Below, piece by piece: positions 12,097 to 57,150 of a stretch of 64,000 nt of DNA. The translations under genes were made by a program, and so were the position numbers. Position 1 is the first letter of the stretch. The number at the start of each line of letters is the position of its first letter. This stretch comes from a virus: IMG/VR virus record IMGVR_UViG_3300042389_000329, positions 1 through 64,000 of that record. One strand, given 5' to 3'. The notes below the pieces were generated by a model. That model saw only the letters and a list, made by a program, of their open reading frames with translations, was not told where the DNA came from and ran no database searches.

Positions 12097-15000
12097 TTAA
12101 CAAAGTTTAGTTAGTATTTCTCCAATTTGAGCTCGCGTATATCCAAGTCTTTCCAGGAAGTCTGCTGTAATCTGATCCTTCAGATAGTAGTTACCATCCT
12201 TGAGTTGAACAGTGAGCTCATCTATTTCCATGGTGGGGAAGTCTTGTACAATTCTTTCCTTGAAGCTTTCTAAGGCTGGGCTGTTTACAAAGTAGGGAAT
12301 AATCTTTTCAGGAGCTACCTCTTTCACTTTGATGAACCCATTATCTATCTTTGACTTTCTAGCGTTAGCATAGAATTCGTTAGCTCTGAAACTATCTCCC
12401 CACGCGTTAATTGCTTGATAGACAAAGTTTTCATACACCTTACCTTTAGATTCTGTGGGATGAATGAGAGGATTACCATAAGCATCTCTCACCTTCTTAA
12501 ACAGACCCTTGTTCATAAAGGAGAAGTCACCTCTTCTCTTCATAGCCCTTCTATCAGCTAAGGGTATACTCTCATCTTCCCAAGAGTACACTATAAAATC
12601 AGATGTCCCTTCTCTACTTAATACAGGCATTGTCATCACTTGAGGAATCTGACCAGTTTTCACTGCTCTTGATACATCCTTGGGAAGGAAGTTAATGTTA
12701 GTGTTGTAGAACCAATTGCCATCTTTTGACTGGAAAAGCTTTGCCTTTGAATGGGGGATGATGTCATCATTGTTCCAATTGTTTCTCTCAAACACGTTGA
12801 GTTTGTAAAACAGGTCTAAGTTAGGAACATTTTCTAGATTAGACAACACTGGGTTGTAGATTCTTTTGAAATCATCATATGGCAACAGTGATGTGAAGCT
12901 GATTGGAGAGTTAGATAGTCCACTCTGTAACACTGCTACAGTGACAATTTTATTAAACAGCTCCTCATTACCTATTCCTGCCAGGTGACTCTTAAGTTTC
13001 TTGAAGTCATAGATGATTTGATTCTGATCATAAAGCTTACCATCCCTACCCTTCATCTTAAGGTTGTCCACACCGTTCACTCTATCAGATAACACAGGCT
13101 GCAATGCTTTGATAACCAGATTGTTATACAAAGGATGGTTTTCATCTGCCTTAATTTTTTGCAGAAAGTCATCTATCTGCCTAACGTAGTTATCATCTGC
13201 TAACAGTGCTTTTTCAATATAGGTGTTCAGGCGAACGTTAGACTTTGTTGTAAAGTCATTCTGTACTGCCCAGTCAAACAAGTCAGCCACCACCTTTTGT
13301 GCCACCTTTACAAATTCCCTGTCAGATAGATTCACGTAGGGCAGCAGCACCTTTTGAACAATGTTTCTCACCTTTGGCTTGTCAGACATGAACACCTCAG
13401 CATACGCATTCCTCAATCTTCCTATGTTGATTCTCAATCTCTTAAGGAAGGAGTTATCAAGAACCTTATCTACTGAAGAAATGATAGTTTCCCTAGCATT
13501 GATAAGTTGCATTTCCTTCTTAAACACCAACAATGGATCATTGAAGTTGGAGGTGTCATAGTTTGTACCCTGTGTAACACGGAACAGGTGTTCGCCCATC
13601 TTAGCATATTTCAGGAACTCATCTAAAATGAAGTGCTGTTCTGCTCTTTCATTTGCATCAAACTCCTGTTTACCAAGGTTTTCTTCTAGCTTGCTTTCAA
13701 TAGGAATAGCAGTTACGCGTTCAGCTTTATTCTCATCCACCTTATACTTGCTGCTATTCTTCACTTGGTTCACGAACTTACCATTGAACACCCATGTATA
13801 GCCTTCATTTTCAAGGGTTCGTAGATAGTCACGGATGATTGGTTGGTTCATGAAGAACACAACAGAGTCAATAGGCACCCCTATCTTAGTTAAGAATAGG
13901 TAGGTGCTAGCCACATTTGGAGTGGCTCCCATTTGCATAATCCACGGACCCTTGGCAATATCCACATATCCGTCAATAAACTGACCTATAATATCGGAGA
14001 TGAACTGACCAGCCTTGTTCTTAATCATGGAAAGGGTAACCACTTCTCTATCACCAATCTTGACAGTGTTAAAGTTGTTTGTACCATCCTCCTTAAAGAA
14101 CTTAATCTTGCCATCCTTTAGCCAGCTCCTATCAGTCAAACTAACTGCTTCCAGCTTTTCATCATCTATGAAGACATTAGAACGTTGATTCAAAGAGTGG
14201 TTAGTCTGGTTAACAGCAGCAATACCAATTGCATATTTACCTGTTACGAATGCATGTCTAAGGTTTGACATGAACACTCTATCCAGCATATTATCCACTT
14301 GTGTATAGTCAAACTTGGTTAGGCCCAGCTTATCTACAATCTTCTTAGATAAATCCTTTAACTGATCAGCAGAGTTGGGTTTTACCAGACTCTCAAAGTT
14401 CAGCTCGTTTGTTACTAGCTTCTCTAGGGAGTCAATGTAAGCGTTCTCTAATAGCTTCTTATAACTAAATCTGCTATACTTTTTGTTTAGCTCATAAGGG
14501 TCCATACCCTTAGCTTCCAACAGAAACTCGTCAATTGAAGGAACATATTTCAGTTTCAGATCATTAACCAAGCTTTCTGTAAGGTCTTCTACGCCTAGAA
14601 CAGACTCTAACAAATCCTGAGCAGCAGTTTCAATAGCTGCTTCTTTTTCGATTTCCTTCATCTTCTTGTATCTGCCAAGAAGATTATTCTCATAGAAATC
14701 TCTAAGTTGACTCTCGCTGTTTGTATTGATAAGCTCTAGCTTCATCAATTTTGGAACCTGATTTCTATCTATGTAGATGTTTTTCAGGTACATAGAGAGC
14801 TTATCTATATCAAAGTCAGATCCCACTTTCTTAACCAGAGCTGAGGGTACAAAAACGTTATCCCCAAACTCCTGTGGTAGGAAGTCTTTAATTACAAAAA
14901 CATCGATTGAATTCTGTTTCTGAGTGGGAATACGATAGGCAATACCTCTAAGTATCTCCTGTCCCTCTTTAGTTTGGTTCAGTGCTTTCAGAAGCTCCTT

Positions 15001-18000
15001 GTCAGACAAGTCGCTTTTGAACCATCTAGCTACGTATAGCTCACATACACGTTCACCTTTTTCATTTACGTAGAACTTCAATTCATCAGATGCGTAAACG
15101 GTTTTATCTCCAACCTGTTTAGCTTCAGCACGTTTAGATTCAAGGAGTGTAACAGGGAGCTGTACCTTTTGGCCACCACTGATTTTCTGAGAGATAACAT
15201 TCTTGTCAGCAATTGAATAGAGAATGTTTCTAATTAACTGATAGGCAGGAGTGGCTTCAAGAACAACCTCCTTAGACTTTAGTCCTCTGAGTGCACTCAG
15301 TACATTGTCATTAACCTCTCTGTTAAGTACTTCTCTTTCAAGCACTTCTACAGTTTTATCAATGTTGTCTAGTGTATAAGAATATGCACCGTTAGAGAAG
15401 GTTTCCTTAATACCAAACTTATCAAGAAGCTGTTCATATCCCTCCTCAATTAGTCTTATCAGAAGATCTTCGTTTCTCTTAATCTCTTTGTATAGATTGT
15501 TGCCACCATTATAAGACTCTTTGTCTTCTAAAGCCACCCAGTTATTATAACGTGTCTCAAAGTCTTCATCTGGTTGAAAGTCAACAGGCATTCCAGCTTC
15601 CATCATATCAAGCGTTACTAGCTTTGTTACCTGGCTACCCCTAGTCACTATCTCATCTTCTTTAGAAGGCACCTCAGCTTGTACACTCATGATGGCAAAT
15701 GGAACATTCAATACACCTTGTTCTAGCGACGGGTTATCTATCTCCTGCTGTGTCTCAAAGGGTACACTATTAAAGTTACCATTGCTGTCATAGATATCAA
15801 ATACCTTTTCAGCCCCCACCTTTCTACCGCTCTCAAACACAGCATAGTCTACATCTTCTTTCTGCATTTTGTTATAAAGCTTGACAGCATTGGAGTTAGG
15901 TTTAAACTCCTTCATCATGCGATAGGACAGGGGATAGAGGGCAAACTTATCCAGTAGTACGTCATTGAACGATCTACCGTTTCCTTTATTTCCAGCTACA
16001 ATAGGCTTTAGTGTAGTGTAGGCACTCTTGACACGAGGGTTTCCTTTCTCTAAAATCTTCACCTCATTTGCACTGAGCTTAAGTTTCTTATCTCTCTTCT
16101 CCCAAGCTATGTCATATCTGTATTGGCTTTCCTCTCTCTTGTTCCAGTTGTTTGAACGAATCCTGAAGTTACGATAGGCCTTGAACATAATAATTCCACC
16201 ACCATCTGCTTCTTCATAAGGATCATCATATAAAGGTAACTCATTAGTAGAGAACACTTTACCAAGAGTGATTGACCTAAAGAAGTCTTGACCAAAGTCA
16301 GTTCTTCCAATATCATCAACATCATATCCTTTATTGTAAACATCATTTAGTATGGAGTTTATTTTCTTAGATCCATACATAATAGCTTGACGTGGGGACA
16401 GGAAGTTCTTAATACGCTTAAGTTCATCTGCATATTGATAAGGATCAGAGTATAGAATCTTGTGAAGCTCTATGTTATTAATCATGTAATTAATAGTCAG
16501 AGCATCCAGTCTTCTTTTTAACATCTCATCCTTTGTAGGTCTGTCTGTTGGGAAGTCTAGATTGTCTAATATCCATCCCTCAGATGTAGCCTCAATAATG
16601 TTGTAAGTAGATAGAGTTTCCTTAAGCTTCTCAGATTGTTTGTTAATAAAGCTGTCAAGAGCTTCAACTATTTGATTCTCATACTTTTTGTAAAGCTGGT
16701 CAGAAGTTAATTGACTGTTTTCTTTATTAAGCGTTTTGTTTTTTGTTTGGCTTGTTATTTCATCGTGCAGTTCTTTTCCTAATATAGGCTTAAAGAAACG
16801 AAGATCCTTTTTGTTTCTTCCTTTAACATCAGCAATGTGACGGTCTTTTTCTCTGGACAGATCTACTTCAGATGTAAAGTATCCTTCAAAAATACTGTGC
16901 ACTCTGCTTCTTCCATACAACAACATGTCTTCAGTGATGGCATTACCCATCTTCATCATGTGCTCCAAAGAGGCATCTCCAGGAACCAGGTTTAGGTAGT
17001 AGCCTGCAAGGTTCATGTTAATCTCTTGGATGAAACGTTCTCTATAGTTAAGTCTGGAAGACTCTTTACTTTTACCTCTAGAGGTGTCAATTGTACTATC
17101 TGCTATAGACACCTTCATATACTCCTGAGCATCAGCCTTTCGTTTACCTGTGTTCAGGTCAAACATCCTATTGATAATCACAGAGTTCTGAGCAAATGAG
17201 TCTGTGATTAAGTATGCATATTGAGGATATTTTTTAGGTATATCGTAAAAATTGTCCACTTGTGTCAGGGCATCATACAGATCACTGGCAGCATTAGTTC
17301 CAATGTAGGTTTGTTTTCTTTCTCCAGAGCCACCAATATATGTGCTGTCAAACTCTGGGTTCTCAATAGCAGACTTGATTTCTCCAAGCTCCATTAGACG
17401 ACCATCAATATTTAAGGTTTTACTATTAATAGATGAAACCCTGTCAGCTTTCTTTAAACTGGTTTTCAAGCCACCAACAGCATCTCTAAAGATTTCTTGT
17501 TTCTCTTTAGATAACTTTTTGATATCAGCCAGTTTAAACTTAATCCCCAGTGATCTCAGGAACTTTACCCTATCCTCCATGTTGTTCAGTTCCACTCTGT
17601 TGATAGCACCCTTGGTAGCAATGTAAGCTTGCTTTGCCTTATCTTCTTTGAAGTAGGGATTCTTTCCTCTAAGCACCTTTACCATATCATTCAAGAGCTC
17701 CTGCTTAGCTTGTCTAGCAGCTGTAGCAAGATTAGCATCTCCTATCTGAACCTCTCCATTATCACGGATGTAATGGTTCTTTACGTCAGGATTTTGTTTC
17801 TTAAAGGTGGTCCACAGAGCTGTTAACAAGTCTGCATCATGTGTCTCTTTAAGATTGGACAAATCAATACCAGGAGTGGTAAAGTTCCTTCTTGTAAGGC
17901 GTGTATATATTGTACGATAATTAGGATCACCTTTTGCCATCTGCTTGATTCTGTTCAACATGTCTTCAATGTTGGCAGAATCATGGGTTTGGTTCATGAT

Positions 18001-21000
18001 TTTAATGAACACTTCAATGGTAGGCAGTAACGTATGTCCTCCAATAGAAGAGGGAATATACTCCGTACTAAGTGTGGATCTGCCATTAGGAGATACAGTT
18101 TGCTTTTCTTTCACCAAAGGAACAGTGGAAAGGATGAGCTTTATTGCAGCGTTAGCTTTCTTAAAATGGTCAATTTTATCTGCTGAATCATATTCTCCTT
18201 TTCCAGTATTTTCATCTGCTGTAAGATTAATGACGTCATTTTCATCAAACTCAATAGAATACTTTCTGAGATATTCCTCATGTTTATTAACCAGCTGACT
18301 CCAAGTGACATCATTCATAATGGACTTTCTCATACTGAGAGACTTAGCCATTTCTCTCTTAGCCTGATTGAGCTCACCTTTTGTTGTATACTTACCAAGG
18401 GTGATGTTGTCCAGATTAGCTTTATAAAGCTTTGTAACTGTGCGTCTTATCTGTACCCTCAACTCTTCATAAAGCTCTTGTCTGTCCAGGTTTGGAACCT
18501 CAAATAGACTCTTGTTTGTTTTAATGAGCTTTCCAAGAGTTTGGTAGGTCATTTCCTGCATGATGTCATTCACCTCTTGACCTGTAAAATTAGCTATGTC
18601 AAGCGCTGCACCATCATCCACCATAGCCTCTTCAATATCAATTATTCCCATCTTGGCATAAGAGAGGGAAGTGTGATAGGGTGAGTAGGTGTTATAGTAG
18701 CCTGTATTAATCTTTTCAAACAGATTAGCAGTGTTCACTGCTGCTTTCTCTCCTGTAAAAAACTCCTTAATAAAGTTAACAAGATCAGCAAAAAGTCTTT
18801 GTATAAAGTTTTTACCTTGTGTAGGTCTGGCAGGAATTTTACCTTTCTGTACATAATCCCTGAACTCTTCAGCCAATGCTTCTTCTAATTGTCTTTCAGT
18901 GGCTGTAGCGTAGGAAACATCTTCTCCAAGTTTTCTGTCATAGAAGGTGCCCTTTCTAGATCTAAGTTCATTTATAATAGCCTGACGCTCCTCAGGATCA
19001 GAAAACATCCTCCAGACAGCATGGAACACTTCATGGTACACTGTGCCCACCTCAGCATTTCCATAGATGTATATTGCACCATCTTTGAACATACCCCAGG
19101 CTTGAACACCGTTAGTAGACTGTAAAACATTCTTAACACGATATACAGGAATGTTAGAGAAATACTTAGAAAGCCATGCTTCAGCTTTCTTCCAGTTCTC
19201 TCCTTCAAACTTTTTCACCTGCTCCTCAATGATTAAACGGAAAGGAACATCATCATCCATGCTATCAATGTCATCTTTCAAATCATCATCATCTTCTATA
19301 TTGAAGTCTCCAAAAGTGTCGTCACCATTTTCCTCTTCTGTTTCCTCTTCTATTTCTATTTCTTCTTCTTCCTCTTCCTCTTTCTTTGCTTTTGGTTTAA
19401 CACCAAAGAGTGAGCTAGCTACATCTTCACTCATTTCATCTGTATCATCTTCTATAACAGTCTCTGTATCAGAGCTAATGTCTTTCTTAGCAACGAGTTC
19501 TCCTTTAATAGCGTTAAAGATGTTACCTCTAAATTGAGCCAGAGTTTCCTCTTTGGTCATCCCTTTACTAATCAACTCCTCTTGAATAGTTTGAGCATCA
19601 CCCACTCCAAAAGCTGTCTTAATACCATTCTTTACATCCTTCTTAAGGATGAGCTCTCTGTTAGCAACAAAGTAGATTTTTCTACCCTTGGGATACTTTT
19701 CACTAGGAGCAGTGGTAAAGATGTTAAGTGTTTCTCCATCTAGGATAAATTTACCAGGAGGAGCCACTCTATATTGTTTCTCTTTTTTCTCTCCTTTTTC
19801 TTCCTTCTCTCCAAGTTTACCAGGCTTTATTTTCTTTTTCTTGGTAGTGGAAGTTTTCTCATACTTGAACTTATCCTGACCATGGTCTACAATAAAGTAG
19901 ATGCCCTTTCTATTTACATCATCAGTGTCCCTAAGGGGTCTCATTTGAGTGTACAGGGGAAGTTCCTTGGAGTTTCTAGCTTCTCCATCCAGTTGACCAG
20001 ATGCTCCAGGCAGTCTGTTGGAAAGTAGATAGGACTGGTAATTTGGCCACTCTCTAGTGGTCATCTCCCCTTGTGGGCTAATTGACAGCACCTCAGTGAA
20101 TGGTTGACTCCATTTAGTGTCAACTAGTTTAGAGTTGATGTTATTGTATAACCCCTCTAACAAACTTATAATCTCATCCTTCTTAGCCCTAACTGCTGTT
20201 GGGGTGAATGGGATGTTATAATCTTTTGCACCAATGTTTAGAGTGAATCTTTTAAATGGTCCTTCTACATCTTCTTCTAAAAAGAATACACTGTTCTGAC
20301 CTCTAGGCTTATTGTCTTTAGGTACACCCCAATAGACAATAGATCTTAGATAACTTAGCATACGCTGAGCATCATCAGAGTCTATACCATCCTCATTCTC
20401 ATGAACTGCTGTTACTAAACGCTCAATAGCTTGGTAAACTGTAGCAGCCTCTTGTTTAGTAAGAAGACGATTCTTTAGTTTGACATAACCGTTCTTTAGA
20501 ATAAGAAACGGTTTACCTAATGGTTTAGAGAAAGACACAGAACCATTGTCCAGTGCTCCTTCAGATGTAGGAATTTCTACAACAGCCCTATTAACTAGAT
20601 CTTCGTTAGTGATAAGCCCTGCATCTTGTACAGATGTAACAGCGTCTTCTGTAGGAACAAAGTTATTCTTTTCATCTAGCTCACCAACCACCTCAGGAAT
20701 ACCAAACGACGCATCAATACTGTATGTATCTGTGGATGGGTTATTTAATGTTTGTGTTCTCCACTCATCATACTGCTTGGTGAGTTCTTCCACCACTTCA
20801 GTTGGAGTGTCCTTTCTGAACATAGAGTCGTTGTTTGACCACTTAAGTTCAGCATTAGGAAATACTTGGAATATAGCAGCGTTTAAATCTTTAGAGGCTA
20901 AGGGTTTACCATCAATACCCACTAAGCGTTTTACTGACTCATCGTCAGGATCTATCTCTACAATAACCAGTGCAATTGTTTCCTTAGGATCGATGTCTGC

Positions 21001-24000
21001 AGTTTGGTCACCTTTGTCTTTTAAGAACTGTGTTAAGCCAGGAAGTATGCCACCTTCATTTTTAGAAGTGACAATGATACCACGCAGATTTTCTCTGTTA
21101 GGCATCTTGTCCATGTTAGCTGCAAACCTGTTAGCTCTTACGTGATGGTCTGCTAATGGTCCTCCTGCAAACTTCTCACTAGGAGCAGTGGTTCCTGTCA
21201 CTACATACAGATCAGGTTTCTTAGGATCGGGTTCATAGTCATACTCGTACATTTCTGTTTGAACCCCATCATCTGCTGTCTTTAAGAAACGCTTTATAAG
21301 TTTTTGATTACGAGCAATTTGTTCTTCTTCAGCCACTCTTTTTCTGTACTCTTCAGCAGTCTTTTCTAATGCTTGTAATGCTTCTAGTTTAGGTTCTCTT
21401 TCGCTTAGGATTTTCTCCAACCCTTCTTGAATATCCTTTATGTCAGCCTCAAGCTTCTCAGCTCTTTTGGTCATATCAGGAATCTTCAACTCTTCAGCAA
21501 ACTCACTAATCTGGTCCTCCAGTTCCATGACAGTTTCTGTCAACCCAAGCTTCTCCTGTATATAGTTTTTAGCTCCCTGCTCACCAAGATAGGGCTCTAT
21601 TCTATTCTGAAGATCTTCTAGATATAAAGGAAGATTTGGATTCTCTTCTCTTAGACGTGTAATATAATCATTGAGAAGAGACATAGCTGTTTGGATGGCA
21701 CTATCTATACTCTCAAGTAGCTTGTATCCACTATCGAGGGACTCAACACTGGTTTTAATAACCTCACCAGTATCATTAATCATAGCCTTTAAATCCTTGA
21801 TAGCTTCATCAAAGGTGTCAGGTAGATTTTCTCTCTGGTCGTATAAGCTCTTTAGATAGTCTCTGGTTTGCTCAAGCTCATCTCTTTCCTCTTCTAATTT
21901 CTTGATAGCATCCTCTGTACCAATATATGTTCTTCTCAGGTTCTCTAATACTTTCCTCTGAGCTTTAGATATTTGTTTTTTGGGCTCACCCTTTTTAGTA
22001 GTGGTTATCTTCTTAATCTCTTCATCAGCTTTCTGTAAAGTGGCTTTAGCATCTTCAAGCTTTTTATCCACTTCCTCCCTAGCAGCAGTAACTTTTTGAA
22101 CTGCTTCAGCCAGGATAGCATCTCTTTCAGCGTATAAAGATGAGAGTTCATCCTCTCCCACCTTTGCAGTTAATGCTTCTTTGGCTCGGTCAGATAGCTC
22201 TTCTTCAGAATAAATCTTAGCCACCTCATACCCTTCCTTAACCACAAACATGTCTCTTGTTACATTATACTTCTTCTTACCGTCTAACGTAACAAATACA
22301 AGCTTGCCTGTCTTACCCTCATATCGTACATTTCCCTGTACAGTTTTCCCCCTACCTAATTGATAGGTGAATACATTACCAGCCACCTCAGTGTAAAACT
22401 TGGCATTAGGTTTGTTTTCAACAGCACTGATTTCTTCAATGTCTTGTCCATCAAAGAAATCTTTCTTCACTGTAAATATCTCACCATCTTCTTTAGGATC
22501 ACGACTGCTCACCTGAAGGACCAATTTACCATCAGGACTTTCACCAAGAACAATGAAACGAGAGAACATCTCATGCTTCACTCCCTTCTTGGTTCTTTTT
22601 ACAGGTACACCGATGTAGTATTCCTTTCCTGTTTCAAATTTGATTTCTCCTTTCTGAGTGTCAACAGTTACAGCACCTTTATCTTTGGTTCCTTCTGGAG
22701 CTTTAGCAGGTCCAGTTTTATACTTAGTTGGGTTTAACTTTATGTCGTTATACTCATCGATGAATGCTTTCTTACGCATTGCCATCTCAGTCAAATCCTT
22801 AGCATTTGTCTTGAGATCTTCTCTCTCATCGTCAGTTAGTCCAGGCTTGGTGTTTATTTGTTCAGCTAAATCTTTAATAGCTTCTTCACTAGGTTTACCA
22901 TCAGTTCCTACAGATTCTAAGATTTCACTAGTGTTTACACCTGAGAGACCAAGTGTTTGATTTACATCGCTTATACGTTGGTCGTAGTTAGCTATCTTAG
23001 AACCAGCATATACCATCTTGCTGATTACATCATCTGTGTATGTACGTTCTCCATTAGGTCCTACTACACCCCCATACTTAATTTTAAGGTCACCATCTAA
23101 CTTAGCAGCTACATTTGCATGTGCCTGCAGGTTATCAAGTCTCTTAATAAAAGATGGCTGAGTGTCAGTGGGTGCAGCATATCCCTCCTGTTGGAGTTTA
23201 AGAAACCCTCCATCACTTAACGCCTGGTTCCTCAGGTCATTTATTTCATAATCAACAGCTTCTTTAGCTCTATACTTTAGACGAGTTTCAATAAAGGTGT
23301 GAGCATAGTCAAACTCTAAGTCCTTGGCTTCCAATATATCACCTCTTCTAATAGCAGCTTCTCTTTCCTCTTGGATGATTTCAGCAGCCTTTAGATTAGA
23401 ATAGGCGCTCTTCATCTTATCCTTAATCAAAGAGTTGTTTAATGCTGTAACAGCTTCATCTCTCAGTTTACCCTGTTCTCCACCAAAACCAAATATACCT
23501 CTTTCTCCAATCTTACCAGTTTTACCAAATACAGGAAGACCACCCTTAACACCTACAAAACCAGCAGATTGTAATGCTCCTGCAAATCCACCAGTGAATA
23601 CATTTAATAATCCCTCATCAGTAGTGAGAGCCTCGTTCAGACCAAATAGTATAGCATCATCTGTAATTGAGGGCTTTTCACCTTTTGCTTTTTTAGAGAA
23701 ATAGTTTTGCGTACCTGTTTGAATAGCATACTGAGCACCCTCTTCAAAAGCCTCAGCAGTGTTAAATAATAAGGATGCAGCTTTACCCGCTCCATACAGA
23801 CGCTTCCCAAACCCTTTTTCTGGAAGAGTGGACACATACTTACCCTCTTTAAAAGCCACCTTATTTAAGATGTCCTTATCACTTTTGAAAGAAGAAGAAA
23901 ATATTCTGGGTAGTTGGATATAGTTTGTTGCAGTGAGGAGAGCACTATTACCTAGATAGCTCCAGTTTCCTACACTTTCTGCAAGTCTGTTAATCTCTTG

Positions 24001-24930
24001 TAAATCAGCAGGTGTGGGATCATACCCACGAGTTCTCTTGAAATTATCAATCATCTGCTGTCTGAAGTCTTGGGAGTTGTTTAATGATTCCAACCCTGCT
24101 TCACCCGCAGTACCAAATGTGGCAACAATAGCTCTGTCAGCTTGCATAAGTCCAAGACCAATACTCTTCTGTGCAGAAGCAGCTAGCCCATTTAGACGAG
24201 AATTGATTGTAGCAAGCCTCTCTGCTTGAGGAAGTATAGAGGCCTCAGATATGATAGCGTCTGCTCTAGAGGCCATTTTTGCACCAGCTCCCATGATACG
24301 GGAAGTGGCACCAAGAGCTTTGAGTGCTCCTCCCCATGCAAAACCTGATGCAAAGGCACCTATGGAAAATCCTAGGTTCTTTACAATATTGTCCCATAAG
24401 AAGTTGCCAGTGAACAAGTTAGCAGGTTCCCACCAGCTTCCGTTTCTTTCTCTTTCTGTTTTGTAATGGGCGTATGTATCCTCTAGAGATGTAGTGTATT
24501 CATTGAGAGATCTGGTTAGTTCGTTGTCATAAAAGGATGAGAACTTCTGATCTTGGACAGATTTAAGAACACCATAAACCAATCCTGCAGTACCATTAAT
24601 AAATGTGGCACCAGCATTACCAGCCATTTTAACAACACCATTGTACATTTTGTCAAAGCTGCCTTGAGACTGGGCATACATCTCCTCATTATCCCTTCCA
24701 GGAAAATACAGGGGGTATCTACCAGAAAAGTCTACACCAGCAGTGGGAACCGCTGGAAAATCACTTCCTGTTTTAGGGGCTGCTGTGTTTAACAAGTTTT
24801 GAAAAACATCTTGATAATCAGCAGTTTCCTTTTTAGGACTGTACGCATATGCGCTCCTATACTCACCAACTAAATCAGGAGGAGTAAAGGGTAGATTTAC
24901 AGGCTTTATGGGTTGTTGCTCGTCTGCCAT
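12097..24930 (-). CDS. Giant virion RNA polymerase polyprotein-like protein (crAss-like vRNAP) with zincin domain
   Basis: 4277 residues. Near residues 3340-3380 the sequence GIAYRIPTQKQNSIDVF is followed by VKKVGSDFDIDKLSMYL. This matches the beta-prime double-psi barrel of RNA polymerases (R-x-P-T...S..., then D-x-D-x-D binding catalytic Mg) and the DxDxD motif of crAss-like phage virion polymerases. Around residue 1965 is VYHEVFHAVWRM, an HExxH metallopeptidase motif with a downstream EALAEEF that could give the third ligand. Other regions: a Gly/Ala-rich hydrophobic stretch at about 185-230, a long coiled coil at about 950-1200, and an extremely acidic linker at about 1850-1900. The protein probably enters the host with the DNA and transcribes early genes; internal cleavage is possible. 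It starts 2 bases after the preceding gene stops. Confidence 0.85.
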   Translation of the reverse strand: MADEQQPIKPVNLPFTPPDLVGEYRSAYAYSPKKETADYQDVFQNLLNTAAPKTGSDFPAVPTAGVDFSGRYPLYFPGRDNEEMYAQSQGSFDKMYNGVVKMAGNAGATFINGTAGLVYGVLKSVQDQKFSSFYDNELTRSLNEYTTSLEDTYAHYKTERERNGSWWEPANLFTGNFLWDNIVKNLGFSIGAFASGFAWGGALKALGATSRIMGAGAKMASRADAIISEASILPQAERLATINSRLNGLAASAQKSIGLGLMQADRAIVATFGTAGEAGLESLNNSQDFRQQMIDNFKRTRGYDPTPADLQEINRLAESVGNWSYLGNSALLTATNYIQLPRIFSSSFKSDKDILNKVAFKEGKYVSTLPEKGFGKRLYGAGKAASLLFNTAEAFEEGAQYAIQTGTQNYFSKKAKGEKPSITDDAILFGLNEALTTDEGLLNVFTGGFAGALQSAGFVGVKGGLPVFGKTGKIGERGIFGFGGEQGKLRDEAVTALNNSLIKDKMKSAYSNLKAAEIIQEEREAAIRRGDILEAKDLEFDYAHTFIETRLKYRAKEAVDYEINDLRNQALSDGGFLKLQQEGYAAPTDTQPSFIKRLDNLQAHANVAAKLDGDLKIKYGGVVGPNGERTYTDDVISKMVYAGSKIANYDQRISDVNQTLGLSGVNTSEILESVGTDGKPSEEAIKDLAEQINTKPGLTDDEREDLKTNAKDLTEMAMRKKAFIDEYNDIKLNPTKYKTGPAKAPEGTKDKGAVTVDTQKGEIKFETGKEYYIGVPVKRTKKGVKHEMFSRFIVLGESPDGKLVLQVSSRDPKEDGEIFTVKKDFFDGQDIEEISAVENKPNAKFYTEVAGNVFTYQLGRGKTVQGNVRYEGKTGKLVFVTLDGKKKYNVTRDMFVVKEGYEVAKIYSEEELSDRAKEALTAKVGEDELSSLYAERDAILAEAVQKVTAAREEVDKKLEDAKATLQKADEEIKKITTTKKGEPKKQISKAQRKVLENLRRTYIGTEDAIKKLEEERDELEQTRDYLKSLYDQRENLPDTFDEAIKDLKAMINDTGEVIKTSVESLDSGYKLLESIDSAIQTAMSLLNDYITRLREENPNLPLYLEDLQNRIEPYLGEQGAKNYIQEKLGLTETVMELEDQISEFAEELKIPDMTKRAEKLEADIKDIQEGLEKILSEREPKLEALQALEKTAEEYRKRVAEEEQIARNQKLIKRFLKTADDGVQTEMYEYDYEPDPKKPDLYVVTGTTAPSEKFAGGPLADHHVRANRFAANMDKMPNRENLRGIIVTSKNEGGILPGLTQFLKDKGDQTADIDPKETIALVIVEIDPDDESVKRLVGIDGKPLASKDLNAAIFQVFPNAELKWSNNDSMFRKDTPTEVVEELTKQYDEWRTQTLNNPSTDTYSIDASFGIPEVVGELDEKNNFVPTEDAVTSVQDAGLITNEDLVNRAVVEIPTSEGALDNGSVSFSKPLGKPFLILKNGYVKLKNRLLTKQEAATVYQAIERLVTAVHENEDGIDSDDAQRMLSYLRSIVYWGVPKDNKPRGQNSVFFLEEDVEGPFKRFTLNIGAKDYNIPFTPTAVRAKKDEIISLLEGLYNNINSKLVDTKWSQPFTEVLSISPQGEMTTREWPNYQSYLLSNRLPGASGQLDGEARNSKELPLYTQMRPLRDTDDVNRKGIYFIVDHGQDKFKYEKTSTTKKKKIKPGKLGEKEEKGEKKEKQYRVAPPGKFILDGETLNIFTTAPSEKYPKGRKIYFVANRELILKKDVKNGIKTAFGVGDAQTIQEELISKGMTKEETLAQFRGNIFNAIKGELVAKKDISSDTETVIEDDTDEMSEDVASSLFGVKPKAKKEEEEEEEIEIEEETEEENGDDTFGDFNIEDDDDLKDDIDSMDDDVPFRLIIEEQVKKFEGENWKKAEAWLSKYFSNIPVYRVKNVLQSTNGVQAWGMFKDGAIYIYGNAEVGTVYHEVFHAVWRMFSDPEERQAIINELRSRKGTFYDRKLGEDVSYATATERQLEEALAEEFRDYVQKGKIPARPTQGKNFIQRLFADLVNFIKEFFTGEKAAVNTANLFEKINTGYYNTYSPYHTSLSYAKMGIIDIEEAMVDDGAALDIANFTGQEVNDIMQEMTYQTLGKLIKTNKSLFEVPNLDRQELYEELRVQIRRTVTKLYKANLDNITLGKYTTKGELNQAKREMAKSLSMRKSIMNDVTWSQLVNKHEEYLRKYSIEFDENDVINLTADENTGKGEYDSADKIDHFKKANAAIKLILSTVPLVKEKQTVSPNGRSTLSTEYIPSSIGGHTLLPTIEVFIKIMNQTHDSANIEDMLNRIKQMAKGDPNYRTIYTRLTRRNFTTPGIDLSNLKETHDADLLTALWTTFKKQNPDVKNHYIRDNGEVQIGDANLATAARQAKQELLNDMVKVLRGKNPYFKEDKAKQAYIATKGAINRVELNNMEDRVKFLRSLGIKFKLADIKKLSKEKQEIFRDAVGGLKTSLKKADRVSSINSKTLNIDGRLMELGEIKSAIENPEFDSTYIGGSGERKQTYIGTNAASDLYDALTQVDNFYDIPKKYPQYAYLITDSFAQNSVIINRMFDLNTGKRKADAQEYMKVSIADSTIDTSRGKSKESSRLNYRERFIQEINMNLAGYYLNLVPGDASLEHMMKMGNAITEDMLLYGRSRVHSIFEGYFTSEVDLSREKDRHIADVKGRNKKDLRFFKPILGKELHDEITSQTKNKTLNKENSQLTSDQLYKKYENQIVEALDSFINKQSEKLKETLSTYNIIEATSEGWILDNLDFPTDRPTKDEMLKRRLDALTINYMINNIELHKILYSDPYQYADELKRIKNFLSPRQAIMYGSKKINSILNDVYNKGYDVDDIGRTDFGQDFFRSITLGKVFSTNELPLYDDPYEEADGGGIIMFKAYRNFRIRSNNWNKREESQYRYDIAWEKRDKKLKLSANEVKILEKGNPRVKSAYTTLKPIVAGNKGNGRSFNDVLLDKFALYPLSYRMMKEFKPNSNAVKLYNKMQKEDVDYAVFESGRKVGAEKVFDIYDSNGNFNSVPFETQQEIDNPSLEQGVLNVPFAIMSVQAEVPSKEDEIVTRGSQVTKLVTLDMMEAGMPVDFQPDEDFETRYNNWVALEDKESYNGGNNLYKEIKRNEDLLIRLIEEGYEQLLDKFGIKETFSNGAYSYTLDNIDKTVEVLEREVLNREVNDNVLSALRGLKSKEVVLEATPAYQLIRNILYSIADKNVISQKISGGQKVQLPVTLLESKRAEAKQVGDKTVYASDELKFYVNEKGERVCELYVARWFKSDLSDKELLKALNQTKEGQEILRGIAYRIPTQKQNSIDVFVIKDFLPQEFGDNVFVPSALVKKVGSDFDIDKLSMYLKNIYIDRNQVPKLMKLELINTNSESQLRDFYENNLLGRYKKMKEIEKEAAIETAAQDLLESVLGVEDLTESLVNDLKLKYVPSIDEFLLEAKGMDPYELNKKYSRFSYKKLLENAYIDSLEKLVTNELNFESLVKPNSADQLKDLSKKIVDKLGLTKFDYTQVDNMLDRVFMSNLRHAFVTGKYAIGIAAVNQTNHSLNQRSNVFIDDEKLEAVSLTDRSWLKDGKIKFFKEDGTNNFNTVKIGDREVVTLSMIKNKAGQFISDIIGQFIDGYVDIAKGPWIMQMGATPNVASTYLFLTKIGVPIDSVVFFMNQPIIRDYLRTLENEGYTWVFNGKFVNQVKNSSKYKVDENKAERVTAIPIESKLEENLGKQEFDANERAEQHFILDEFLKYAKMGEHLFRVTQGTNYDTSNFNDPLLVFKKEMQLINARETIISSVDKVLDNSFLKRLRINIGRLRNAYAEVFMSDKPKVRNIVQKVLLPYVNLSDREFVKVAQKVVADLFDWAVQNDFTTKSNVRLNTYIEKALLADDNYVRQIDDFLQKIKADENHPLYNNLVIKALQPVLSDRVNGVDNLKMKGRDGKLYDQNQIIYDFKKLKSHLAGIGNEELFNKIVTVAVLQSGLSNSPISFTSLLPYDDFKRIYNPVLSNLENVPNLDLFYKLNVFERNNWNNDDIIPHSKAKLFQSKDGNWFYNTNINFLPKDVSRAVKTGQIPQVMTMPVLSREGTSDFIVYSWEDESIPLADRRAMKRRGDFSFMNKGLFKKVRDAYGNPLIHPTESKGKVYENFVYQAINAWGDSFRANEFYANARKSKIDNGFIKVKEVAPEKIIPYFVNSPALESFKERIVQDFPTMEIDELTVQLKDGNYYLKDQITADFLERLGYTRAQIGEILTKLC

Positions 24931-41198: not shown

Positions 41199-42170
41199 TT
41201 AGTTATTGCGTCTCCAACCATACCTATTAGTGCGATTGGGTAGTTCGTACATGTTAAATCTGTTCAGGTCATTCTTAATCCTACGTTGCTTAGCCCAAGG
41301 ATCTTGCTTCTTAATCTCGATATCAGCCATGATGAAGGCTTCCTCAGCCTGCTGTTTGTAATATGCAAGCTTCTGTTGGAGCTGATTAAAGGTTTCATCA
41401 TTAGTCTGATTGGTGAGAGTTTCCATCATTTTAAACTTGATGAAAGCCTCAATGTACTCCCTGATACGGAAGTTGTTGGGAATCAATTGATTACCAGCAG
41501 CATCGTATTCTGTAGCATAGAAAATCAGGTGTACAACACCATTACGGAAGTTGGTAACAAACTTATTATCTCTAATGTCAAATGAGTCATACCCAGCAGA
41601 ACCAGGAGTGAACTCACGAAGAGGGGGAGCTTCTGAATAGAACTCCCAGTTATTGGTATATTCCACACCACAATTCTTTTGTGCGGAGATATTACCAGGC
41701 TTGAGTAGATATTCCCTACGATATAGTACAGGGGCTTGGTTGTTTGTTTTGTACACTGTCTGAATAATCTCAGGCATACAAGATCCATCACATCCCACAT
41801 TACCGCAACAAGGGCTAGGAATGGGACAGTCTGTAGTGATGGGACTCACCTGTATAGTTGTGGCTGTTGCAGCCTGTGAATAGAATGAGTTAGCCTGTTG
41901 ATAGGGAAAACCATTTACAGCTGTACAAAGCCATGCTTCACGAACAGCATAAAAGTTATCTGGGAGCCTAGCTTCGTAGTCACAGATGTTCAACACCTCC
42001 TCCTGAATAACATACGTTGCTCTACCCAACTTTCTGAGACACTTGTCTAGATAGGTGGGGAAAATAAGGTCATCAATAGCCCCTGTATCGAAGTAGCTTT
42101 TAAACTCTTCCTTTACAGTGGAATAGACAACATCAGGAGAGATGAAGTTATATTTGTAATAGTATGACAT
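41199..42170 (-). CDS. Tail tubular / neck ring protein (crAss-like)
   Basis: 323 residues starting MSYYYKYNFISPDVVYSTVK. The N-terminal ~90 residues are helical (LDKCLRKLGRATYVIQEEVL) followed by DYEARLPDNFYAVREAWLC, a combination typical of the conserved tail-tubular/adaptor protein of crAss-like phages. The centre has a Cys-rich loop (CPIPSPCCGNVGCDGSC), and the C-terminal part is a long helix plus basic tail (RRIKNDLNRF). It sits 5 bases after the HU/IHF-like neck gene and 5 before the giant tail gene, in the order expected from portal outward to tail. Role by position and resemblance, not by motif. Confidence 0.7.
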   Translation of the reverse strand: MSYYYKYNFISPDVVYSTVKEEFKSYFDTGAIDDLIFPTYLDKCLRKLGRATYVIQEEVLNICDYEARLPDNFYAVREAWLCTAVNGFPYQQANSFYSQAATATTIQVSPITTDCPIPSPCCGNVGCDGSCMPEIIQTVYKTNNQAPVLYRREYLLKPGNISAQKNCGVEYTNNWEFYSEAPPLREFTPGSAGYDSFDIRDNKFVTNFRNGVVHLIFYATEYDAAGNQLIPNNFRIREYIEAFIKFKMMETLTNQTNDETFNQLQQKLAYYKQQAEEAFIMADIEIKKQDPWAKQRRIKNDLNRFNMYELPNRTNRYGWRRNN

Positions 42171-42654: not shown

Positions 42655-43383
42655 TTATCTAGTGTTTGGAACATTAGGTGCTTGACCATCAACTCCATCA
42701 CTTGTAATATCTGTCTTCAATTTGAAGTAGGTGGATAGTAACTTCTGAGAAGTTAGCTCTAACACTTGCTTTTCTAGGTAACCAGGAACAGGAGACTCTT
42801 TATCAAGAGGGTTCTTGCAAAGTTCTTCTGTTGTATATTCTGGTGTGCCACAGCCACATTCTGGGAACATAATGGAATTTGGAACATCCTCCTCGAACAA
42901 AGCAACAAGTCTGATGGCTTTCAGAAGGGGGTTGTTCACATAAAGGTACCCATTAGTAATCCAGTAGTATTCTTCCTTCTTGATGATAGGAAGCTTAAGC
43001 AAGTTAATATATCTATTGATGGTTATTTCCTTTAGTTTCTTTCCTTGCCCGCTCATTGCATTGATTGAGTAGACACCCTGAATAACATACTGATAGTTAC
43101 CCTCTGTGATGCGAGGAAGCTTGAATTTAGTTCTAGCTACGGAACAAGGATCAGAATATTCACAACATTCAGAAATAGGAACCTCCACCATCTCCAGACA
43201 GGGAATGGTGGTGAACACTGTATCAGTGGCCCAAAGCTTCCTCAGATTAGTCTCACGTTTGATAAGGAGGAAGGCATTGTTCTTAATCTCAGACATGACA
43301 GCCCTATCCGTGATCAAGTTGTCTGTAGACAGCAACTTGTGCATGGAGCGCACATCTGAAACTAATTTCCTAAAAGTTGACAT
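42655..43383 (-). CDS. Neck ring / head-tail adaptor protein
   Basis: 242 residues. Helical N-terminus (FRKLVSDVRSMHKLLSTDNL), then a beta-rich body with a cysteine pair region (ISECCEYSDPCSVARTKF) and a second (MFPECGCGTPEYTTEELC). The segment EEYYWITNGYLYVNNPLLKA is characteristic of a conserved uncharacterized structural protein encoded beside the IHF-like gene in crAss-like phages. It overlaps the metallophosphoesterase gene by one base and precedes the IHF-like gene by two bases, so translation is probably coupled. Inferred to form a ring below the portal. No enzymatic motif seen. Confidence 0.65.
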   Translation of the reverse strand: MSTFRKLVSDVRSMHKLLSTDNLITDRAVMSEIKNNAFLLIKRETNLRKLWATDTVFTTIPCLEMVEVPISECCEYSDPCSVARTKFKLPRITEGNYQYVIQGVYSINAMSGQGKKLKEITINRYINLLKLPIIKKEEYYWITNGYLYVNNPLLKAIRLVALFEEDVPNSIMFPECGCGTPEYTTEELCKNPLDKESPVPGYLEKQVLELTSQKLLSTYFKLKTDITSDGVDGQAPNVPNTR

Positions 43384-51088: not shown

Positions 51089-52642
51089 TTAGAATTGTGG
51101 GATTTCTTCAATCAACACTGTACGAGACAGGTCCTCAATGAATACATCACAACGATCCTTCATCCAGATTTCGTATCCTGGGAATTTGTTCGCAGAGCTC
51201 ATACCCTGAGACTTAGCAAAGCCTAAGTGGTGGCGAGTTCCATCGATATATCCCCAAGTCATAGAAGGAGCACCCTTCATACGCACCTCACGGATGTTAT
51301 TAACCATAGAGCCATCAGACATAGGACTTACGTCAAACACCATGAATACAGGAGTTGACTTCTTGTTCTGTCCAAACTCTAGGTTAGATTGAGGAAGGTC
51401 AAGTTCCTTCAGGTGAATCAGTTCAACACGACCAGTCTCACGAGTTACCATTGCATCGAATGCAAAGTTGTAAGTGATGTGTTGTCCTTCTCCCTGCATG
51501 TAACGGTTTCCGCTATCAGCCATGAAGGTAAGACCGCTATTCAAAGCGTCTGTCTTCAAAGCTTGTTGGAACACGTCAAAACCTGCTTCGTTAGTGTACA
51601 TTTTAACACGACGGTCTTTAACATCCACACGACGATAGAACAGGTCACCAAACACAGAACGAATCAGGTTGGCAGTAAATTCACCACGGTTGTATTGAAC
51701 CAGGTTACCGTTGTTACGCATGCGGTGATAAACACCAGCAGATGTACGCTTAAGTTCTTGCTTAGATCCGTTGGTCTTTACAGTACCAGGACGAGACCAA
51801 ATCATACGCTTAACTTTCAACTCAAGCATAGACTTACGCATCCAGAACTCAATAAATGGCTCCCACTTAACATCGTTACGAGTTAAGGGAAGTTGGTTAC
51901 GACGCTGAGGTGCATATACAAGGATATCCAAAGGACGTCCTGCAGAGTCACGCATCATTTTGTCATCAGCCCACTCAGTGATTTTGTGCTCAAAACCATA
52001 TGCAGAACCCAAAGATTCAAACATAGTGATTTGCTCACCCAAACGAGGAAGACCTAACAAATCTTGATCGAACTCACCAATTGCAGCATCAACCAACTCA
52101 AGCTCGATACCTACTTGTAAGAAGGTAGAACTTACGAAGTCTACAGTTGGGTTGTCTGTAACAAGTGTGAAGCTATAAAGGAATCCCATGTTCCAAGGAA
52201 CGGGGTCCTTAATAACATAGAAGCGAGGACCATACTGACGAGAACCTACAGACACAATAGCGTTCTTAGAGAACTCATTAGTGTCGAGGACCAGTTGGAA
52301 CTCTTGACCATCGATACCAGGCTTGCTCAACTCAAGAGTTGAGTTAGGTACGTCGATGATTTTGGGGAATTTGTAGGGAACAGCTACTTGCCATTTCCAA
52401 GCATCGCTATTATTATCAATGTAATAAGGCGTGCTTTTGTTGATCATGTCGAGAAAGTCATTGCTGTACAGAGAGCTCTGTGTATAGAGGCTGATGATTT
52501 TCTTGTCGTAATCAGCAGGCTCAGTTGAGTGAAAGCTCTCCAGGTGGTTAGCGTCAGTTAGCTTACCTACAGCACGCTTGTCCATAGAAGCGACACGAGC
52601 ATACGTGAAGCCAGTTAGACCTGGGATTGTTTGAATTGCCAT
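51089..52642 (-). CDS. Major capsid protein (HK97-fold, crAss-like)
   Basis: 517 residues, MAIQTIPGLTGFTYARVASM. Length, position (scaffold just upstream, neck proteins downstream) and overall look match crAss-like major capsid proteins. Segments such as FYVIKDPVPWNMGFLYSFTL and LGLPRLGEQITMFESLGSAY are recognisable. The gene's codon choice (frequent CGT, AAC, TAC, GGT) differs from the cargo genes and points to very high expression. Its upstream gap is only 29 bases, so it is probably read from the promoter ahead of the scaffold gene. Downstream are two strong RNA structures (50946-51053) that may stabilise the capsid mRNA. HK97 fold is inferred from family, not visible directly. Confidence 0.85.
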   Translation of the reverse strand: MAIQTIPGLTGFTYARVASMDKRAVGKLTDANHLESFHSTEPADYDKKIISLYTQSSLYSNDFLDMINKSTPYYIDNNSDAWKWQVAVPYKFPKIIDVPNSTLELSKPGIDGQEFQLVLDTNEFSKNAIVSVGSRQYGPRFYVIKDPVPWNMGFLYSFTLVTDNPTVDFVSSTFLQVGIELELVDAAIGEFDQDLLGLPRLGEQITMFESLGSAYGFEHKITEWADDKMMRDSAGRPLDILVYAPQRRNQLPLTRNDVKWEPFIEFWMRKSMLELKVKRMIWSRPGTVKTNGSKQELKRTSAGVYHRMRNNGNLVQYNRGEFTANLIRSVFGDLFYRRVDVKDRRVKMYTNEAGFDVFQQALKTDALNSGLTFMADSGNRYMQGEGQHITYNFAFDAMVTRETGRVELIHLKELDLPQSNLEFGQNKKSTPVFMVFDVSPMSDGSMVNNIREVRMKGAPSMTWGYIDGTRHHLGFAKSQGMSSANKFPGYEIWMKDRCDVFIEDLSRTVLIEEIPQF

Positions 52643-54360: not shown

Positions 54361-54556
54361 ATATTTCTTTAAGTGCTTGATAAGTAATGAGTAATGACAT
54401 CCTTTTTATCTTTTCCACCATCTCAGCCTCATCCTCAGACAGCAAGACAGTGTCCATGTCCTCAATCACACCCATAGCCTGTATGCAGGCTGTGATGTCT
54501 TCATGAGGGGTGGGGTCAAACTCTAGGGTGTCATCCAATATCTCGTTGATATCCAT
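54308..54556 (-). CDS. Small acidic protein, function unknown
   Basis: 82 residues, acidic (MDINEILDDTLEFDPTPHED) and helical (EDEAEMVEKIKRMSLLITYQ). It begins on the last base of the portal gene (one-base overlap) and its end overlaps the mini-zincin gene by about 50 bases, so all three are probably coupled. It might assist portal or protease assembly; there is no motif to support a specific role. Confidence 0.55.
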   Translation of the reverse strand: MDINEILDDTLEFDPTPHEDITACIQAMGVIEDMDTVLLSEDEAEMVEKIKRMSLLITYQALKEIFEASQYGNKEPTQGRTS

Positions 54557-57150
54557 TATTCTTTCTTAGGTTTCTTTGCTCTTCCCTTTGCGTTTTCTTT
54601 AGCTATGGCCAGGTCATTTTTCTGATTCTCTCTAGCCACTTGTAGTTTTTCTCTTTCTATAGTTAACTTATCTGCAGCTAGTCTATTTTTAGTATTAATC
54701 TCAGCCATTTTAACATCAAACTCTTTTGTGGCTTTTGATTGTTCATTAGCTAACTTACTGATTTCCAATACGTCAGGAACACCACTTTCATCTACGTCTG
54801 TAAGTCCCATACCCATAGATTTAGCCTCAGCATTTATCAAAGCAATCTCTTTCTTATTGATACGGTCTAGTTCATTCTGATAATTCTCGTTAGCTATCTC
54901 TTGCTCTTTTTGTAATTGAGCTTGTTGAATCTGGGCTTGTGCAATCTGACCCTGTTGTTCCACCTGCTGCTGTTGAATTTGCAGCTGTTGCTCTTGCATA
55001 GCCTGTTGTCTGTCACGGAGCTCCTTAAACACTTTCTTCATTTGTCTCATGGACTTAGTGCTATACAGCTCAATCACATCATACAGAGATCCACCGTTCT
55101 GCATCAAAGGCTGGGCCAACTGACGAAGCTCATTGAACATCTGTGTATCTTCAGGACGATTTGTCAAGAATACCTTCAGGTCACGGAACTTTAAGTCAGT
55201 TCCATTAACAGATACAAAAGCTGATTCACCCTCGCTAGTGATATAGCTAAGGGTGGACTGGGGCTTCTTGCTTTCTACATACAGGGCAGCATCAATAATG
55301 GCTTGATAGAGCTGACCCATTATATATTCATGAGCTACAAACCAAGGTTCTGTTTGAGCATAAGATTGTTGAATAGCTGTTTGTGTACCTGTTGCAGATT
55401 CACTTGCTGTTACAGATCCTAAACGTTGTCTACTCATACCTACAAGCTCCCAACATTCATTCTTTAGCTGTTGCGCTAAGGTGTAACGAGACTGGATCTC
55501 CTGAGTTCTGGTGAGGTCAATGTCCCTAAACTGATTGAATGAGCTGGGGCTCTTTAGGTTTTCAGGACTGTCATCAATAAACACAACACCACGGTTGCGA
55601 GCTTCCATTTCCCAGATGTCTAATGCATCCTGAGCATCACCATCCTTAGGAACAGGAACGTGTCTGATGGATGTCAAATACACCTTACCCACTTCCTTCT
55701 CAAGAAGTTTGTAAAGCTGGTTCATACATACATTGTACAGCACCTGGAAGGGTTTCATCAAATCTACCAGAGATTTAGCCTCTGTATTCTTCACTTCGTA
55801 AGTAATACCAATAATAGGGCAATAATTAAGAAGCTTGAATGGTTTAACATGGTAGATGTCTGGACCAATCTTTGTACCCTGATACCATTGATTAATCCAT
55901 CCCCACTCTAAACTCTGTTGTGTAGGAATGGTTCCAGACTTATAGTTCTCATCTACTAATATTGATTGCTCATTACCTATTTCATCTAAATAGATTAATT
56001 TACCAATCTTCTTCTTACTCAGCCAATAACAACGAACAACAACATACTTATATCCAAAGGAGCTCACATTAGATGTAAGTCCTAAGAAGTCTTTTAAACC
56101 ATCACTATTCTCCTTCATTTCTGATTCAATAATCATACGTGTCTGGAGGACAAGAGGGTCAAATGTATCATACATTACAGAGTCTATACCAGGAATAGCG
56201 TTAGGATTACCTAGATTGGACTCACGTACATTAATTAATCCATAGTCTTGAAGAGATGAACGAAGGTGATCAATCTCTTCTTTGGTGAGGTCAGGGATGC
56301 TTTCAATGATTTCTGAAAGCTCCATAACTTGTACTGTACCAGCGGCATAAGCCCCCTGAGCTCTACCTGTAGGATCAGAGATATACTTTCTATCAGGAGT
56401 TGTAAGAAACCAAGTGTTCTTAGGGTTAGCCACCTCAACGTTAAATCCAAGTTTTGAGTTGTCTTCATATATATGATAGAATTCTCTTCCAGAAATTAGC
56501 ATATCACGAAATGCATCTTCTGATTTCTCCTTCAGATTGAATTCAGCCTTTTGACATGTAAGAACGTGATTAGCCCACTTCTCAGCTACAGATGTATAGC
56601 TGTCAAGAACATCTTTAACATCTTCAAAACTCATCTCTTCAACTTCCTCTTCAGAGAGCTCTTCTCCTTTTAGAGAAGCCTTCATCAGAATCTGTTCTCT
56701 TGCTTTACCAATAATGTATTGTTGAAGAAGTTCTGTTTTAAATTGTAACTCTTCAGACTTACTATCATCATCAAATGCTTTCACCCTGAATGTATCAGGA
56801 CGCTTGCTTATTTCACCCACTAATTCGTTGACAGGTGTGGTGATGATGGAATACATCTTTACATATGCAGGAAGTTGTAAGTCAGCTGTAAGCACGTCTG
56901 TAAATGAACGCACTTGTGGCTCCTGATAGAAATCTTCCATCCTTAGGATACCTTTCATTAAGTCGTAGTTCTTTACAAACGTGTCACGGTTCTTTACAAA
57001 CTCAGCATAAGCCTTGTTTGCAAAGTAGTCCATGGTGTTTTTGATCCAGCTCTCGTCTTGCTTCTCTTTATCAGTTTTGAACTGGTCAGGGAAGATATTA
57101 AGATAGGCATACCTAATGGTAGCATCTTTGGTATATCTAATAATAGCCAT
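54556..57150 (-). CDS. Portal protein
   Basis: 864 residues, directly after TerL with a one-base overlap, the standard terminase-portal order. The N-terminal ~600 residues are mixed alpha/beta with portal-like segments (YVKMYSIITTPVNELVGEIS, TYEVKNTEAKSLVDLMKPFQ). From about residue 690 the protein becomes a long Gln/Glu-rich coiled coil (QQAMQEQQLQIQQQQVEQQG), consistent with the long C-terminal barrel seen in crAss-like and P22-like portals, and it ends in a Lys-rich tail (ENAKGRAKKPKKE) that could touch DNA. Length is within the range of crAss-like portals. Confidence 0.85.
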   Translation of the reverse strand: MAIIRYTKDATIRYAYLNIFPDQFKTDKEKQDESWIKNTMDYFANKAYAEFVKNRDTFVKNYDLMKGILRMEDFYQEPQVRSFTDVLTADLQLPAYVKMYSIITTPVNELVGEISKRPDTFRVKAFDDDSKSEELQFKTELLQQYIIGKAREQILMKASLKGEELSEEEVEEMSFEDVKDVLDSYTSVAEKWANHVLTCQKAEFNLKEKSEDAFRDMLISGREFYHIYEDNSKLGFNVEVANPKNTWFLTTPDRKYISDPTGRAQGAYAAGTVQVMELSEIIESIPDLTKEEIDHLRSSLQDYGLINVRESNLGNPNAIPGIDSVMYDTFDPLVLQTRMIIESEMKENSDGLKDFLGLTSNVSSFGYKYVVVRCYWLSKKKIGKLIYLDEIGNEQSILVDENYKSGTIPTQQSLEWGWINQWYQGTKIGPDIYHVKPFKLLNYCPIIGITYEVKNTEAKSLVDLMKPFQVLYNVCMNQLYKLLEKEVGKVYLTSIRHVPVPKDGDAQDALDIWEMEARNRGVVFIDDSPENLKSPSSFNQFRDIDLTRTQEIQSRYTLAQQLKNECWELVGMSRQRLGSVTASESATGTQTAIQQSYAQTEPWFVAHEYIMGQLYQAIIDAALYVESKKPQSTLSYITSEGESAFVSVNGTDLKFRDLKVFLTNRPEDTQMFNELRQLAQPLMQNGGSLYDVIELYSTKSMRQMKKVFKELRDRQQAMQEQQLQIQQQQVEQQGQIAQAQIQQAQLQKEQEIANENYQNELDRINKKEIALINAEAKSMGMGLTDVDESGVPDVLEISKLANEQSKATKEFDVKMAEINTKNRLAADKLTIEREKLQVARENQKNDLAIAKENAKGRAKKPKKE

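Follow-up and report, generated by a model that had tools for sequence, protein, structure and literature searches.

Gene content of the window and layout of the 4277-residue protein

The window, meaning the whole stretch of 64,000 nucleotides analysed here, contains mainly late genes, and gave no Rfam match and no tRNA. On the negative strand we found genes matched with PHROGs to a major head protein (51089..52642), a portal protein (54556..57150) and the terminase large subunit, TerL (57150..59174), the last also by tblastn to crAss phages and a tree. Two tail ring proteins, CrAss_Ring_1 (41199..42170; PF24228, E 7.6e-12) and CrAss_Ring_2 (42655..43383; PF25702, E 6.6e-18), are encoded on the same strand. 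By these tail-ring, portal, terminase and head-protein matches the phage is classed as crAss-like. A 158-aa ORF adjoining the ring genes (42176-42652) was considered for the IHF gene of the structural block; it matches phrog_12177, of unknown function, and has no Pfam match. TerL was placed in a quick, unrooted tree, which has long branches; there it groups with phages phi17:2, csAssE-Sib and Lbo-JY46 and lies apart from the Steigviridae and Suoliviridae samples, the families sampled.

Some other observations were made on the window. The nearest annotated TerL record is Leptolyngbya phage Lbo-JY46 (41%, E 1e-139), which has a cyanobacterial host on record, and crAss-related phages may therefore reach beyond Bacteroidota hosts. 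No relative turned up in bacterial or archaeal genomes, and hence no host link. Two ORFs, at 317-1987 and 2025-4901, carry long GTSGTSG-type repeat tracts that are collagen-like in look; the first lies near the fragment end. A 1761-aa virion protein at 35908-41193 has several long threonine tracts and cysteine-rich C-terminal stretches.

The main subject of this analysis is an ORF of 4277 aa (12097..24930, negative strand, as are all its parts), read as a fused cargo protein and virion RNA polymerase. Its architecture is shared by 72 related loci. In brief, the protein starts with an N-terminal module (aa ~59-800; 22531..24756), homologous to the N-terminus of crAss001 gp47 and to a protein of phi17:2 with a structural annotation; the module also matches phrog_32390. 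It is followed by a charged, poorly conserved spacer (aa ~801-1190; 21361..22530) and a middle module (aa ~1192-1775; 19606..21357) that is recognised in the distant relative L016. The first-pass annotation had described a long coiled coil. The spacer is a possible place for one, but it is unproven, and no heptad pattern passed a crude screen with strict thresholds. A hydropathy scan did not support obvious membrane helices in the N-terminal module. The acidic linker and the HExxH motif described in the same annotation are both present: aa 1801-1900 (19231..19530) hold 39 acidic residues (D/E), and HExxH occurs as a single copy in the 4277-aa protein, the putative metal-binding motif HEVFH at aa 1966 (19021..19035). 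The motif lies in a zincin-like domain (aa 1890-2110; 18601..19263) with homology to the C-terminal part of crAss001 gp47. The second half of the protein harbors the region homologous to phi14:2 gp66 (aa 2640-3701; 13828..17013), the polymerase core as modelled (aa 2955-3740; 13711..16068) and a C-terminal region (aa 3702-4277; 12100..13827).

Two further genes on the negative strand belong to this block. P0006 (5376..10511) encodes a 1711-aa transcription-block protein, homologous to the 1714-aa protein that cr108_1 has in this place and equated with gp49/gp65 by its position; in relatives the location next to the polymerase is conserved. P0008 (10516..12093), a 525-aa ORF, separates the polymerase from the gp49-like gene and begins with 36 aa (CPNKNLQSWKNLVEAQGEKIAYYLWDKYAGNVP) that form a motif. 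In ~35 relatives this motif starts the next ORF after the polymerase, the gp49-like one, and it also opens the same-placed ORF of cr108_1 and, in L016, the polymerase ORF, which is separate there. Cargo chains that are made separately may be tagged by this motif for packaging or ejection. In relative L158, P0008 and the gp49-like protein are fused into one ORF of 2224 aa. By eye, GSLALRKAG...HDIDW at ~aa 279-300 of P0008 resembles a Pol-beta-type nucleotidyltransferase motif, with no PHROG or Pfam support, and GTLDFMAIEPSGKVHILDWKF...QLGRY at ~aa 480-550 of P0006 resembles a PD-(D/E)XK nuclease motif. The latter agrees with a report of PDDEXK domains among the transcription-block proteins of crAss phages (PMC7886860).

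A crAss-like virion RNA polymerase in the C-terminal half

The first-pass annotation had pointed to RxPTxxxxS followed about 20 residues later by DxDxD, and this order is found: RIPTQKQNS at aa 3333-3341 (14908..14934) and the catalytic motif DFDID at aa 3372-3376 (14803..14817). The two motifs are part of GIAYRIPTQKQNSIDVF (aa 3329-3345, window 14946-14896) and VKKVGSDFDIDKLSMYL (aa 3366-3382, window 14835-14785), the second coming 20 residues after the first. The interval originally given for the signature, 14790-14900, does include the DFDID segment, but of the RxPT segment it takes in the tail only. At this protein size and composition, D.D.D alone is expected ~1.5 times per shuffle of the 4277-aa protein. 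DFDID by itself would therefore prove nothing, and the signal is the motif pair; R.PT....S followed by D.D.D within 15-45 residues was seen in none of 5000 composition-preserving shuffles.

Whole-protein single-sequence searches of Pfam, PHROGs and PDB gave nothing useful, and profiles were therefore needed. A blastP search against the ORFs of named phages aligned aa 2640-3701 with residues 653-1656 of phi14:2 gp66 (E 7e-20) and the polymerase part with crAss001 gp50 (E 9e-20); the polymerase match spans residues ~2640-3700. All PDB sequences were searched with a profile built from 13 close relatives; the sole entry found was 6VR4, the virion RNA polymerase of phi14:2 (E 6.7e-35), with GSDFDIDK of the profile aligned onto the DFDID of 6VR4. 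A 104-sequence profile matched 6VR4 at E 2.9e-200, a value that is not independent because phi14:2 itself is in the profile. In the profile search with crAss-like virion RNA polymerases that had been proposed, the phi14:2 enzyme is thus the exclusive PDB family matched.

AlphaFold2 without templates modelled aa 2955-3740 with pLDDT 85.9 and pTM 0.86, using 104 diverse sequences in an alignment that contains phi14:2 itself (L179). An earlier job with the 13 close relatives reached pLDDT 53 and was discarded. Foldseek of the core model against PDB gave 6vr4_A (E 9.2e-19) as the sole match below 0.001, followed by two-barrel polymerases with weak scores: the PhiKZ and AR9 non-virion RNA polymerases, cellular beta-prime chains and QDE-1. 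Superposed as a whole, the model and 6VR4 fit loosely (TMq 0.59, rmsd 11.4). In a viral structure library, the core model has 37 matches at E up to 1e-3, some of them from named crAss-like phages. A comparison of the predicted structure with double-psi-barrel polymerases had also been proposed, and 6VR4 is its top match, which would imply that the single chain has two double-psi beta-barrels.

All 83 core ORFs of relatives retain DFDID or DFDVD. In the 104-sequence alignment (A2), where many sequences are just ~20-25% identical to the window protein, D, F, D and D of DFDxD show no variation. The 16 invariant positions include the DFDxD aspartates, R and P of RxP, and K83 of the core in SGxKVGA. 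This lysine is aa 3037, in SGRKVGA (15820..15822), and we infer its role as a candidate counterpart of the beta-type DPBB lysine.

The signature is confirmed to be that of a crAss-like virion RNA polymerase within a 4277-aa protein. A chance resemblance of motifs in an unrelated protein, which the expected frequency of D.D.D might suggest, is refuted by the convergence of sequence profile, fold and conservation on one enzyme family, and we give it practically no weight. It is also very unlikely that the polymerase part is inactive and has been retained as a structural or ejection protein. Such a reading could draw on the relatives of the N-terminal module (phi17:2, Lbo-JY46) in genomes with no polymerase match to the core profile. 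The intact DFDID/DFDVD of every core ORF and the 16 positions left unchanged at such low identity argue against it.

Fusion to gp47-like parts and the zincin-like domain

Two parts of the protein match crAss001 gp47, namely aa 98-734 (blastP E 1e-20, profile E 1.3e-56) and aa 1894-2091 (blastP E 3e-12, profile E 4e-14). The N-terminal profile also matches the structural-annotated protein of phi17:2 (4.9e-45) and a protein of Lbo-JY46 (7.8e-38). In crAss001, gp47, gp49 and gp50 each have a gene of their own, that of gp47 lying on the opposite strand, and gp67, gp66 and gp65 are likewise separate genes in phi14:2. The first-pass annotation correctly gave 2180 aa as the length of phi14:2 gp66, and noted about twice that length in one chain. 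The fusion is real and present in dozens of relatives, but it is not an enlarged polymerase: the double length arises because gp47-like and gp50-like parts, separate in phi14:2 and crAss001, are joined.

For comparison, 83 related IMG/VR loci were fetched. In 72 of these, the N-terminal, zincin and polymerase modules are located in a single ORF; the complete fused ORFs (n=67) are 3735-5052 aa long, with a median of 4287. In five further contigs, which carry a window-like TerL, the open frames measure 3786-4348 aa. In L016 the protein is split into ORFs of 1119 and 3454 aa. It should be noted that giant and fused virion RNA polymerases of up to about 6000 aa have already been described in crAss-like phages (PMC10136315); the window protein therefore adds a member and no new type.

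The gp47-like module also occurs in phages where no such polymerase was found (phi17:2 and Lbo-JY46); a core-profile search of the complete records of these two and of csAssE-Sib gave no polymerase. This suggests that the module has its own job, possibly in ejection. The epsilon group has been described as being without the transcription block (PMC7886860), whereas an epsilon protein is reported to have a weak HHpred match to the phi14:2 RNA polymerase (95%, E 3e-3) (PMC11054128). Given this weak match beside the empty core-profile search of csAssE-Sib, we do not claim that the polymerase is absent from the epsilon group.

The zincin-like domain of the window protein combines HEVFH with invariant downstream glutamates. 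A profile of the domain matched no Pfam or PDB entry and no named peptidase family, and the label 'zincin' thus rests on the motif and on the homology to gp47. Among 82 relatives, the second metal-ligand position is Glu in 62 and His in 19, and Glu with differing flanks in L016. When HExxH and HExxE are mapped on a quick tree of the core, a minimum of 6 changes is needed, at least 4 of them forced by well-supported branches. The alternation of His and Glu spans L003-L017 and L108-L175. Since only these two residues are seen at the second ligand, a retained metal site is favoured over decay.

Two other explanations for the fused ORF have to be weighed. That it is an assembly or annotation artefact joining two genes, as the opposite strand of the crAss001 gp47 gene might hint, is next to impossible: the same three modules lie in frame in the 67 complete ORFs from other contigs, and the five contigs with a window-like TerL have open frames of similar kind. 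The main rival is a polyprotein that is cut by the zincin-like domain, freeing a polymerase of ~2200 aa, comparable to phi14:2 gp66, from the gp47-like part before packaging or after entry. The gp47-like and polymerase parts are separate proteins in phi14:2 and crAss001, the charged spacer and the acidic linker flank the middle module near the zincin-like domain, and zincin-like domains on N4-type virion RNA polymerases have been proposed to process large proteins (PMC5512222). This rival is weakened by HExxE: with Glu as the second ligand in most relatives, and repeated changes on the quick core tree, the relatives have retained the fusion but not a classical HExxH protease. We regard cleavage as unlikely, at about one chance in four.

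Proposed role and comparison with known systems

We suggest that the C-terminal half is very probably a single-chain, two-barrel crAss-like virion RNA polymerase joined to gp47-like cargo, which is packed, ejected and transcribes early genes. Binding of the catalytic metal would fall to the DFDID loop, and the invariant lysine of the second barrel would help to hold the substrate. The polymerase would be covalently tied to the gp47-like cargo, that is, the N-terminal module, the variable charged spacer and the zincin-like domain. The chain would be made late and packed in the head, and would pass as a thread through the tail and into the host, together with the DNA or before it; the polymerase would then transcribe early phage genes without the host polymerase. 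Being fused, the polymerase would stay tethered to the entry apparatus, at a fixed one-to-one stoichiometry and with joint delivery guaranteed.

For the window protein we infer packaging, ejection, activity, early-gene promoters and tethering, and the tethering and packaging steps would follow by analogy. Its presence in the virion is likewise predicted from relatives. The gp65-gp67 proteins of phi14:2 are annotated from virion MS/MS, and gp47, gp49 and gp50 of crAss001 were detected in virions by mass spectrometry; they are virion cargo, proposed to be extruded in a partly unfolded state (PMC10172136). In phi14:2, the RNA polymerase reaches the host cell along with the DNA and there transcribes the early genes (cited in PMC7886860 and PMC10136315). 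For fused virion RNA polymerases in general, the fusion may couple DNA entry with transcription (PMC10770324).

The window adds one member and a set of relatives, and makes clear which two proteins have been joined. The proven crAss-like virion polymerase is thereby extended to diverse uncultured phages, and more than 100 divergent sequences now restrict its catalytic core to 16 invariant positions. A natural test of physical coupling between phage entry and early transcription is offered by the lasting gp47-like fusion. Going further, we speculate, with considerable doubt, that an environmental crAss-like clade, whose TerL lies beside phages in which no polymerase was found, has made the cargo-polymerase fusion permanent and tethered transcription to the DNA entry channel, with a central metal site that takes His or Glu and serves regulation or structure rather than classical proteolysis.

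The closest characterized system is phi14:2 gp66 (6VR4), which shares ~1000 aa of homology, DFDID and the single chain with the window protein, is its best fold match, and also has a gp65(-like) gene downstream. In contrast, gp66 has 2180 aa, is unfused and ~22% identical, and the upstream gp67 gene is separate. In crAss001, gp50 corresponds to the polymerase part, gp47 to the N-terminal and zincin parts, and gp49 occupies the place of the 1711-aa ORF, but each of the three has its own gene, and that of gp47 is on the opposite strand. Among annotated phages, the best match of the window core is cr108_1 (Pipoluvirus; QOR58986 and QOR58987), where zincin and polymerase are likewise in one gene; the N-terminal module of the window had no cr108_1 match at the cut-offs used. 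The cr108_1 gene carries a group I intron within the DFDID codons (L001 15775-16093, Rfam E 3.2e-20), whereas the window reading frame is continuous through the catalytic site and has no Rfam intron.

In gp96 of Thermus phage P23-45, a virion RNA polymerase, a metallopeptidase and a virion protein are also combined in one giant chain (PMC10770324). Unlike the window protein, gp96 is a 5002-aa tape measure of a long-tailed phage, with an N-terminal polymerase and DFDGD at 779. We found no sequence match between the two proteins. The N4-type virion RNA polymerase is a T7-like single-subunit enzyme and not a two-barrel one. It resembles the window protein in being very large, injected and fused to a zincin-like domain (PMC5512222).
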